Assembly (NCBI GenBank): GCA_013388835.1
Contig: JACAEL010000022.1
Coordinates: 1-42,676 of the forward strand
Length of the DNA stretch: 42,676 bases
DNA from: Candidatus Thorarchaeota archaeon
GTDB lineage: Archaea > Asgardarchaeota > Thorarchaeia > Thorarchaeales > Thorarchaeaceae
Direction: 5' to 3'
Shown here: piece after piece, positions 9,230 through 42,676 of the stretch
How positions within the stretch are numbered: position 1 is the first letter of the stretch
Layout: the number at the start of each line of letters is the position of its first letter
Notes under the pieces: model-generated
What the model was told of the DNA's origin: nothing
What the model saw: only the letters and a program-made list of their open reading frames with translations
Databases searched by the model: none
Made by a program: the position numbers and the translations under genes

Positions 9230-9334
9230 TGGGGGCGCCGAGATTTGAACTCGGAACCTGCGAGTGGCTCATTCTATGACCCCGTTGTCATAAGATCTGG
9301 AGCCCGACGCCATACCGGATTAGGCCACGCCCCC
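9230..9334 (-). tRNA. tRNA-Trp(CCA) with an intron at 37/38
   Basis: Read on the minus strand, acceptor GGGGGCG pairs with CGCCCCC, with discriminator A and no encoded CCA. D-stem GCC/GGC, T-stem CCGAG/CTCGG and loop TTCAAAT are all intact. Anticodon loop CTCCAGA gives anticodon CCA (9298-9300). A 31-nt insert (9266-9296) after G37 separates it from A38 and the 3' anticodon strand CTCGC. The insert contains an ATGAC/GTCAT hairpin. BHB pairing CTC/GAG is imperfect and pair 27-43 is a U-C mismatch, so the exact cuts are uncertain. Removal leaves 74 nt. Confidence 0.82.
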
Positions 9335-22309: not shown

Positions 22310-22480
22310 TGGCGGGCTCGGCGGGATTTGCTCCGCGCCGAGGGACTCTCGACACGCTTGAACCCGCGGCCCCTGCCCGACCAAGACATCGTTTCTTGGC
22401 CTTCAGGTTAAAAGCCTCAGCCGACGAGACAGAAGGACTGTTTCGAAGACTGCTGCGCTGCCTGCCTGCGCCACGAGCCC
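22310..22480 (-). tRNA. tRNA-Lys(UUU) with three introns
   Basis: Minus strand: acceptor GGGCTCG pairs with CGAGCCC, then G73 and encoded CCA. D-stem GCGC/GCGC. Anticodon loop CTTTTAA with TTT at 22410-22412. T-stem GCGGG/CCCGC. The T-loop is broken by 30 nt (22328-22357) with central helix GTTC/GAGC, bulges AAG and AAA, and a 9-bp inner stem. A 34-nt insert (22416-22449) splits the 5' anticodon strand, with central helix CAGC/GCTG and bulges AGT and AGG. A third insert of about 30 nt (22371-22400, ambiguous because GGCC repeats at both ends) lies in the variable loop, with CCAAGA/TCTTGG inside. Removal leaves 77 nt with anticodon stem GCAGG/CCTGA (27-43 mismatched). The third intron is the least certain. 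Confidence 0.75.
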
Positions 22481-22947
22481 GGAACACACCTGCAGCCATC
22501 TGACACTCCATTGCTGGCAATATCAAGTATGGTCATGCATGTATGGGAAGCTGTTCTGCCTGAGCACCGGAGCCGGGTTGCTGTGTCAATAAAAGGCTTA
22601 CGATGAAACGAAGACATTTGGCATATCAGCTGCCACCAATCTGCGTTTCTGTGATGTAGAATGTGTGAGGTACTGCGGCATAATAAACTTACTCTGCCAC
22701 CGAATTCGGCTGCAGAAGTCAAGTCCGAAGTCGGCAGAAGAACCAGCGCTGCCTGATTTGCACCTAACATGAACACTGAAGGCCACCCCCTGCCTCAGTC
22801 TCAGCCATGCGGTGACAGGTCGTGACCACTTGTGCAAGAGCCCTGTCCCCGGGACATGGAAGAGACGGAATGCCAACGACAACTTTAAGTGAAACACGGT
22901 CGTCGAGGGTCAGAGCATGCCCGTAAGACGGACAGCGTTTCACAGGT
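22481..22947. other. Intergenic region between tRNA-Lys and tRNA-Asp
   Basis: About 470 bp separating two divergent tRNA genes. Open frames here are short and match no family I know. TTGATATT on the minus strand (22519-22526) and ACTTTAAG on the plus strand (22882-22889) are possible TATA boxes for tRNA-Lys and tRNA-Asp. A CCTTTTATTG at 22585-22594 on the minus strand could be a further promoter. Confidence 0.35.
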
Positions 22948-37182: not shown

Positions 37183-37291
37183 GGGCGCGTAGTCTAGTCA
37201 GGGTTCAGAGCAGTTTGCTGCTCTGAAGTACAGATAGGGCGCCAGCCTTCGGAGTTGGATGTCCCAGGTTCAAATCCTGGCGCGCCCGCCA
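37183..37291 (+). tRNA. tRNA-Arg(UCG) with a D-loop intron
   Basis: Acceptor GGGCGCG pairs with CGCGCCC, then G73 and encoded CCA (37289-37291). Anticodon stem CCAGC/GTTGG, loop CTTCGGA, anticodon TCG at 37249-37251. T-stem CCAGG/CCTGG with loop TTCAAAT is intact. The D-loop is interrupted by 31 nt (37203-37233) after G18-G19. The insert is almost entirely a perfect 10-bp hairpin (TTCAGAGCAG/CTGCTCTGAA, loop TTTG). Bulges GGG and AGA flank it, but the central helix has only two good pairs, so the BHB is relaxed. Removal leaves 78 nt. Confidence 0.9.
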
Positions 37292-37341
37292 CTTCCTTCT
37301 GGCACGCCCTCGGCACATGGTGTCGTCCAGCAACCAGCATA

Positions 37342-38979: not shown

Positions 38980-39606
38980 TTGTTTGATGAAGATGGCGAA
39001 AGCCCTGAGCAGCCGGACCTAGAAGTACCGGAGGAAGTCGAAGGACAGGAGGAGGAGATAGAGCCTGCTGAAGCAATCTTCGCAGACGGGAAAGGTTACG
39101 TTGGAGCTGATGACGCCGACAGGATATCACAGCAGGGGTTCTATGGTACAAGGACTGACGACGGCAGGCTAGAACTCGAGCCTGTTGAGATTCTTCACCT
39201 CATCGAGAGGAAACGTTTGATTGTAAGGCTACAGAGTGGTGAGCCTTGTTCTGCAAGCACGATTGTCAGTAAACTGCTCAGGGAACAACCGGACTTGTGG
39301 ACAAGGTATCTCGTCTTCAGAGACCTGAGAAGCAGAGGATACGCGGTGCGTCAGGGCTTTGGTGGGGGAATTGGGTTCAGAGTCTATGCTAGGGGAGAGA
39401 AGCCGGGCTCGGCCTCTGCCAACCAACTTGTCTATGTTCTCAAGGAAGGTGATGTAGTGTCCCTACAGGAGCTTGCTACAATTACAGAAACCGCCTCCGC
39501 AGCAAGAAAGAAGCTTGTCTTCGCCCTCGTCGACCAGAACGGTGAAGTCAACTTCTACAGAGTCGCTCAAGTTGTACTCCACAACAGGCAGGGTGATACG
39601 GTTTGA
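38980..39606 (+). CDS. endA: tRNA-splicing endonuclease homologue lacking the catalytic His
   Basis: About 208 residues from a TTG at 38980; the open frame runs on upstream across the protease gene, so the start is uncertain. An acidic stretch of about 35 residues precedes the N-terminal domain. The C-terminal nuclease domain is clear: RYLVFRDLRSRGYAVRQGF, then FRVYARG with the catalytic Tyr, and ARKKLVFALVDQNGEV with the catalytic Lys. The usual His, in an EHxxxLV context after the Tyr, is replaced by GSASANQLV with Ser at that position. Known enzymes need Tyr, His and Lys, so this may be a structural or altered subunit. The TGA overlaps the TTG of the ATPase gene. Confidence 0.85.
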   Translation: MFDEDGESPEQPDLEVPEEVEGQEEEIEPAEAIFADGKGYVGADDADRISQQGFYGTRTDDGRLELEPVEILHLIERKRLIVRLQSGEPCSASTIVSKLLREQPDLWTRYLVFRDLRSRGYAVRQGFGGGIGFRVYARGEKPGSASANQLVYVLKEGDVVSLQELATITETASAARKKLVFALVDQNGEVNFYRVAQVVLHNRQGDTV

Positions 39607-40892
39607 CACACAGATGGAACAATAGCGATGACATTGAAGCATATGAAGAGATCAGGAGGCTGGAGTCATTCTTTGACCCGCACACTATGAGTGTTCATCT
39701 GGTTGAGAACAATCCCCCCAGGGCAAAGAGGGGTGCTCCCGGCGACTGGTCACTTGTAGAACTCTCCAGTCAGCCGCTAAACCGCGAGGAACTGGAGGAA
39801 ATGGCGGAAGCAATCGTTGTCGCAGCCCGCAATGACCGAGGCTCGTTTGTGGAGATTGAGGAGGTGGGTGCATTGGTGGTTCAGTTGAGGAACTACAGGA
39901 TAGCAATCGCGCAACCCCCGTTTGCGGACAAGTTTGAGATTTCTGCAATTCGTCCGATTACCAAGCTCTCCATAGCCGATTATGCCCTGAGTCCGAAGTT
40001 GATGAAACGCCTTGAGAGCAGAGCAGAAGGAATACTAGTATCAGGTTCACCGGGCTCAGGCAAGAGCACTTTTGCGGCCGCTCTTGCAGAGTTCTATAGT
40101 GGACGCGGTAATATTGTAAAGACACTGGAACAACCTCGGGACCTTCAGGTGACAGAGGACATTGTCCAGTACGCACCCATTGATGGCAGCATGGAGAAGG
40201 CGGCAGACATACTTCTGCTTGTGCGTCCGGATTATGTGGTCTATGATGAGCTCAGGAAGGACTCGGACTTTCAAGCATATGCAGACCTGCGTTCTGCAGG
40301 AGTGGGTATGGTGGGCGTTGTTCATGCGGGGTCCTCGATTGATGCGCTCCAAAGGCTCATTCATGGGGGAAGAGTGGAACTGGGTCAGGTGCCTAGCACA
40401 GTCGACACGGTGGTTCATATCGAGGCAGGTAGAGTTGCCAAGGTGGTATCATTGTCGCTCAAAGTGAGGCTACCCACTGGGATGAGTAGTTCACAGAGAG
40501 ACTTGGCCAGACCTGTCATTGAGGTGAGAGACTTCGAGCGCGGATTACTGGAATTTGAGATGTTCACGTTTGGCGGCGAGAAAGTGGTGATGCCTGTACA
40601 CGGGACCGATGTGACAGCAGCAGGAAGAGGCGGGAGGGACCATGAGGCGGGAGCAGCTGCGGGTGAGAGTGTTCAGGTGTCAGTAAGCTACTCGTCCAAG
40701 AGAGTGACACTGTTCGTGGGCAGGAGGTATGCAAGACAACGACTGGATGTCTTCGCAGACGACGTCTATTTGCTTACCACTGTTGTGGGCCGCAATGGGG
40801 AGTCCACGATTCGAACAAAGACCCGTCAAGGCAGCGCTCTGGTTGATGCAATGGAAGAAGGTGCAAAGATTACCGCTCGTGTGGCGGACTGA
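39603..40892 (+). CDS. PilT-family ATPase with KH-like end, lacking the PIN domain (COG1855-like)
   Basis: 429 residues. The COG1855 block starts at once: FDPHTMSVHL, then AKRGAPGDWSLVEL and NYRIAIAQPPFADKFEISAIRP. Walker A GSPGSGKST is near 148-156, followed by LLVRPDYVVYDELRKDSDF and GVGMVGVVHA. The C-terminal 80 residues resemble a single-stranded nucleic-acid-binding KH/TRAM-like module. In most archaeal relatives a PIN nuclease domain of about 140 residues precedes this block; here the protein starts about 25 residues before it, at a TTG overlapping the endA stop (TTGA). A role in RNA processing with the endonuclease is inferred from the coupling. Confidence 0.88.
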   Translation: MTHRWNNSDDIEAYEEIRRLESFFDPHTMSVHLVENNPPRAKRGAPGDWSLVELSSQPLNREELEEMAEAIVVAARNDRGSFVEIEEVGALVVQLRNYRIAIAQPPFADKFEISAIRPITKLSIADYALSPKLMKRLESRAEGILVSGSPGSGKSTFAAALAEFYSGRGNIVKTLEQPRDLQVTEDIVQYAPIDGSMEKAADILLLVRPDYVVYDELRKDSDFQAYADLRSAGVGMVGVVHAGSSIDALQRLIHGGRVELGQVPSTVDTVVHIEAGRVAKVVSLSLKVRLPTGMSSSQRDLARPVIEVRDFERGLLEFEMFTFGGEKVVMPVHGTDVTAAGRGGRDHEAGAAAGESVQVSVSYSSKRVTLFVGRRYARQRLDVFADDVYLLTTVVGRNGESTIRTKTRQGSALVDAMEEGAKITARVAD

Positions 40893-42368: not shown

Positions 42369-42676
42369 CTAGTCGCCACTCATCAGCGCTTTTAGCCGCT
42401 CCATCTCTGCGAGCATCTCACTCTGAAGAGAGCTCTTGGGTGCGCCTGAGGATGCAGGTCCGCCGGGACGACCGCCGGGAATGCCCTCGGTGGAAACCAC
42501 ACCGCTAGGACCACCACTGGGACGACCACCACCGGGAGGACCACCGCCGGGAGAACCGCCGCCGGGAGGACCACCGCCGGGAGGACCACCGCCGGGAGGA
42601 CCACCGCCGGGAGGACCACCGCCGGGAGGACCACCGCCGGGAGGACCACCGCCGGGAGGACCACCGCCGGGAGGAC
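42369..42676 (-). CDS. Gly/Pro-repeat protein, 3' part only
   Basis: The window edge cuts this gene; only its last 102 codons are seen. Most of that is a Gly-Gly-Pro-Pro-Gly repeat, then Gly/Pro/Ser-rich linker (PSGVVSTEGIPGGRPGG) and a short amphipathic helix SSLQSEMLAEMERLKALMSGD before the TAG. Such an arrangement, a disordered Gly/Pro linker leading to a short C-terminal helix, suggests a flexible tether whose tip binds a partner. The N-terminal domain, which would define the function, lies outside the window. Confidence 0.7.
   Translation of the reverse strand, partial: PPGGGPPGGGPPGGGPPGGGPPGGGPPGGGPPGGGPPGGGSPGGGPPGGGRPSGGPSGVVSTEGIPGGRPGGPASSGAPKSSLQSEMLAEMERLKALMSGD
42524..42676 (-). 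repeat. 15-bp tandem repeat encoding Gly-Gly-Pro-Pro-Gly
   Basis: About ten copies of a 15-bp unit (minus strand GGTGGTCCTCCCGGC). The copies at the window edge are identical and those nearer the 3' end have diverged, which suggests growth by slippage. The repeat runs off the window. Confidence 0.9.

Follow-up and report, generated by a model that had tools for sequence, protein, structure and literature searches.

A probable beta subunit of an (alpha-beta)2-type splicing endonuclease, lacking the catalytic histidine, in a Thorarchaeota genome

The window, meaning the whole 42,676-nucleotide stretch of DNA that was analyzed, is contig C22 of a 3.0 Mb Thorarchaeota genome with an estimated completeness of 97.6%. 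Positions 38980–39606 of its plus strand hold a complete open reading frame encoding 208 amino acids, from a TTG start codon at 38980 to a TGA stop codon at 39604–39606, which we annotate as a gene for the beta (structural) subunit of the splicing endonuclease EndA. The start codon is backed by nine related loci, where the reading frame is closed by a stop immediately, or one codon, ahead of this TTG. Both EndA domains were recovered above the Pfam cut-off: PF01974 scored 75.9 bits (E 2.6e-21) with the full model covered, and PF02778 scored 43.1 bits, values that exclude a chance match. The AlphaFold model of the protein has a mean pLDDT of 88.8 and adopts the EndA fold, and a fold search with this model matched EndA structures in the PDB with a best E-value of 2.4e-17.

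Two further features of the protein were delimited by combining the model with related sequences. The N-terminal tail (approximately residues 1–29; 38980–39066, plus strand) is acidic, as it also is in relatives, with pLDDT values of 51–53 at residues 1–20, and lacks secondary structure as far as residue 29. Near the C-terminus, residues 185–193 (DQNGEVNFY; 39532–39558, plus strand) form an acidic loop of the L10 type together with the strand that follows it. In the beta alignment, Asp185 of this loop is kept in 29 of 33 members, and position 189 is Glu or Asp in 30 of 33. The L10 pocket has a described role in (alpha-beta)2 assembly (PMC6379350).

The beta stop codon overlaps, through the four bases TTGA at 39603–39606, the start of a gene for a PINA-family ATPase (39603–40892, plus strand). 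This ATPase matches NCBIfam PRK13764 with 530 bits, and the match begins at model position 140, past the PIN domain, so that the protein has no N-terminal PIN domain. The short form, without the N-terminal extension, is found in the window and in nearly all copies of its family; the extension occurs in two genomes of one genus within that family and in the other Asgard groups, and the four extended copies checked carry a PIN domain in it. A homologous ATPase gene lies 3' of beta, on the same strand and within about 200 bases, at 41 of 54 Asgard loci, among them all 35 loci of the window's family. PINA has been described as a branch-migration helicase (PMC8775617), and a functional link between beta and the ATPase is possible. 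Farther downstream, a tandem array with a 15-base unit in 11.3 copies occupies positions 42507–42676 and runs up to the end of the contig.

The catalytic triad columns of the window protein are occupied by Tyr136 (codon 39385–39387), Ser146 (39415–39417) and Lys177 (39508–39510), all on the plus strand. The initial annotation, made from the sequence, had read the gene as an endonuclease homolog with Tyr and Lys in place and Ser instead of His, and the alignment bears this out: the segment SASANQ of beta stands opposite the DHAPF region of its alpha paralog. That annotation had also allowed for a nearby His filling the vacant role. The protein has just two His residues, His73 of the N-terminal domain and His201 of the C-terminal tail, and therefore none in the catalytic domain can stand in. 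A search for a substitute His likewise found none, and the one column of the beta alignment in which His recurs is position 73 (14 of 33 members).

A six-frame search of the whole genome detected exactly two genes with PF01974. The second, the alpha gene, is placed by this domain at 55,563–55,817 on the minus strand of contig C68 (G000:C68:55563-55817), unlinked to beta. Its 196-amino-acid product carries the full triad of Tyr133, His141 and Lys172, as anticipated by the earlier prediction of a second EndA gene with a complete triad elsewhere in the genome. The alpha protein also contains the Crenarchaea-specific (specificity) loop including its conserved Lys; all 27 Asgard alpha proteins compared have this residue (Lys50), and the same alignment retains Trp192 in 26 of 27 sequences and both Arg162 and Arg165, candidates for the Arg of substrate recognition, in all 27. 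Contamination is an unlikely source of the alpha gene, which groups in the tree inside genomes of the same family. The whole-genome PF01974 search returned no other beta candidate, and a gene for RtcB is present on contig C71. Among the known architectures, the alpha-4 type, which needs a single gene with a full triad, is excluded by the presence of two genes; the alpha-prime-2 and epsilon-2 types are likewise excluded, since each gene encodes one N-terminal and one C-terminal domain (208 and 196 amino acids) in unfused form.

EndA was surveyed in genomes of the phylum and in Thermoproteota. All 59 phylum genomes searched contain EndA, and most carry two genes. The named relatives of alpha are mostly from Thorarchaeota, followed by other Asgard groups and then Thermoproteota. 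Asgard EndA proteins fall cleanly into two sequence classes: in alpha, each residue of the triad is present in 36 of 36 sequences, whereas in beta the first column holds Tyr in 52 and Phe in 2 of 54 sequences, the second has no His in any of the 54, and the third is Lys throughout (54/54). None of the 44 Thermoproteota beta proteins has the His either; 35 combine Tyr or Phe and Lys with some other residue at the His site, two have Tyr and Lys but a gap in that column, and seven lack Lys and mostly Tyr as well. The combination of Tyr and Lys without His, which had been taken as surprising in the window protein, is thus standard in beta subunits of Asgard archaea and most Thermoproteota. In one genome of 77% completeness (G043), the single EndA match (L057) has a full triad and sits on a long branch, and no beta was found; in a Thermoproteota record (G064; L199/L202), a 384-amino-acid open reading frame gives two EndA catalytic-domain matches and would seem to encode both repeats as one fused enzyme, in contrast to the two genes usually seen in this lineage.

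Phylogenetic analysis of 162 proteins separated alpha from beta (70 versus 92 rows) at an SH-aLRT value of 100, with Asgard and Thermoproteota beta proteins on the same side of this branch; the tree came from a quick search with no bootstrap, omits the five most degenerate beta sequences, one near-partial sequence and one fused sequence, and contains several long branches, so that the order inside beta is unsure. Because the alpha/beta split is fully supported, the loss of His is most simply regarded as an old trait common to beta rather than one peculiar to the window genome. When the 91 columns of the beta catalytic domain were ranked by conservation, the Lys column came 2nd, the Tyr column 14th and the His column 89th. 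Judged from these alignments, selection has freed the His position in beta while holding Lys and Tyr/Phe. The pattern suggests a non-catalytic role for Tyr and Lys, and the retention of the two residues fits either packing or a remaining contact with RNA; the replacement of Tyr by Phe in some lineages favors packing for that residue.

The assignment of the window protein to the beta class does not follow from its fold, since in the fold search the catalytic chains 1a79, 2cv8 and 3ajv_B ranked above the beta chains 3ajv_A and 3iey_B. It rests instead on the absence of His, the placement in the tree and the existence of a partner gene. On these grounds, the window gene very probably specifies the structural (beta) component of a tRNA/RNA-splicing endonuclease of the (alpha-beta)2 type, for which we infer assembly, cleavage and specificity. 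The mechanism, drawn from (alpha-beta)2 enzymes of solved structure (PMC6379350), would most likely run as follows. Beta would pair with the catalytic alpha subunit, the product of the C68 gene, via strands at the domain interface, and two such pairs would join through their acidic loops into a tetramer, the DQNGE loop of each beta being offered to the opposite alpha. The tetramer would have two active sites, both in alpha, which would cut both intron ends at bulge-helix-bulge or relaxed motifs, and RtcB would then ligate the exons. The observed base of this model comprises both genes, the triad and loop Lys of alpha, the EndA fold of beta and its lack of His, the RtcB gene, the tRNA inserts at unusual positions, and the pairing of alpha with beta, which is conserved across the phylum. 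Two points count against the model: a purely structural role would not obviously call for so strict a retention of Lys and Tyr, and the alpha and beta genes do not lie next to each other in the genome. Our literature search, which covered sources outside subscription papers, found neither biochemistry nor a dedicated type study of an Asgard splicing endonuclease.

Comparison with characterized enzymes places the Asgard pair among known two-subunit forms. The (alpha-beta)2 EndA of Aeropyrum pernix (PDB 3P1Z, 3AJV) is likewise specified by two genes, one catalytic and one not. Its alpha subunit aligns with the C68 protein over nearly the full length, including the triad, the specificity loop with its Lys and the C-terminal Trp, and is detected by the Asgard alpha profile at E 3.4e-60; its beta subunit is more diverged, being reached by the Asgard beta profile only at E 1.7e-6 (3p1z_A), and the Asgard beta proteins differ from A. 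pernix EndA in keeping Tyr and Lys. The best sequence match of the window beta and its profile is the (alpha-beta)2 EndA of Methanopyrus kandleri (PDB 5X89, a subunit fusion), with E-values of 3.6e-27 for the beta sequence and 4.7e-53 for the profile. The M. kandleri enzyme has the same two-subunit arrangement of catalytic and structural parts, lacks the specificity loop and has a constrained specificity (PMC6379350), whereas the loop is present in the C68 alpha protein. In the two-repeat euryarchaeal EndA (alpha-prime-2; NCBIfam PRK09300 models), beta matches mainly the N-terminal structural repeat (e.g., 7–167) and alpha the C-terminal catalytic repeat (e.g., model positions 177–344), but that enzyme is one fused chain and the genes here are two and unlinked.

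A similar correspondence extends to the human enzyme. The Asgard beta profile detects the structural subunit TSEN54 at E 4.5e-8, better than TSEN2 or TSEN34, while the Asgard alpha profile detects the catalytic subunits TSEN2 and TSEN34 at E 5e-19 and 2e-17, respectively, and TSEN54 only at 0.05; the eukaryotic enzyme, unlike the two-subunit form described here, is built from four different subunits. A specific link between Asgard and eukaryotic beta proteins was considered and dropped, as the Thermoproteota beta profile reaches TSEN54 equally well (6.8e-9). According to the published view, the eukaryotic enzyme descended from an (alpha-beta)2 ancestor (PMC6379350). At the level of profile similarity, the likeness of beta to TSEN54 and of alpha to TSEN2 and TSEN34 fits such an ancestry without singling out an Asgard source.

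The retained residues also bear on whether beta is more than a scaffold. In a reading that we consider improbable, beta keeps a partial active site that remains in use: its Tyr and Lys would contact RNA or assist catalysis, for example by binding phosphate without a general-acid His, and would thereby broaden the range of splice sites cut. Lys and Tyr/Phe might then hold the RNA or tune the active site of alpha, with the PINA-family ATPase possibly acting as an RNA-remodeling partner. This reading, to which we give a small chance, refines the main explanation more than it competes with it. The invariant Lys column, the Tyr/Phe column and the free His column of Asgard beta proteins point in this direction, as do the 35 of 44 Thermoproteota proteins with the same combination; however, the occurrence of Phe in several lineages indicates that the site can do without the hydroxyl, some Thermoproteota beta proteins lack Tyr or Lys as well, and structural packing accounts for the conservation equally well.

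Far less probable is that beta acts apart from alpha, for instance as an RNA-binding protein working with the downstream ATPase. The close adjoining or overlap of the two genes in 41 of 54 Asgard loci and the unlinked position of alpha would be in keeping with this, but alpha proteins with this kind of sequence are those of (alpha-beta)2 enzymes, in which a beta is present, the genome offers no other candidate for that subunit, and linkage to the ATPase is compatible with a subunit role. It is highly improbable that the window protein forms an active homotetramer or homodimer on its own, with another His restoring its activity: two of the three triad residues are present, but its His residues, of which only that at column 73 recurs, lie outside the catalytic domain.

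The structural-subunit reading can be set beside the tRNA genes of the same genome. Infernal alignments reveal tRNA inserts in the anticodon loop, the variable region and the T-loop, although part of the variable-region inserts in two tRNAs may be a long variable arm. Within the window, the tRNA at 9230–9334 (minus strand) carries an insert of approximately 31 bases in the anticodon loop. ARAGORN finds the tRNA-Arg(UCG) at 37183–37292 (plus strand) only after a segment on its 5' side is removed; in the D-loop of this gene lies an apparent intron of approximately 29 bases with a strong hairpin fold (−15.4 kcal/mol). A tRNA-Lys(UUU)-like candidate at 22313–22487 (minus strand) appears by eye to contain three introns, in the D-loop, anticodon loop and T-loop; it is a lower-scoring candidate that Rfam matched no more than weakly when the whole genome was searched.

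Enzymes of the (alpha-beta)2 type are the broad-specificity type of EndA, and crenarchaeal members owe their broad specificity to the loop Lys (PMC6379350). High intron loads at unusual tRNA positions have been reported for Atabeyarchaeia and Freyarchaeia (PMC11291895), and a 2026 study used PF01974 and PF02778 to identify EndA in many archaea, Asgard archaea included, in the context of rRNA circularization (PMC12918454). The initial annotation had expected a broadly specific enzyme in view of non-canonical introns. Inserts at unusual positions would plausibly require a lenient enzyme, and a link between the endonuclease type and non-canonical introns is reasonable because the (alpha-beta)2 form is the broad-specificity type and the genome has inserts in D-loop, T-loop, variable and anticodon regions.

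The two-gene EndA described here is a known kind of enzyme, and the window gene is typical of its group. Two traits are of mild interest: Lys and Tyr/Phe are strictly kept in the absence of His, and the position of an ATPase gene next to beta is conserved. A two-gene (alpha-beta)2 EndA with a broad-specificity loop characterizes the window genome and nearly all Asgard relatives sampled, and this type is in keeping with the abundance of tRNA inserts at unusual positions. The asymmetry of beta, with a freely varying His site but conserved Lys and Tyr/Phe, makes the question of the role of this subunit concrete.
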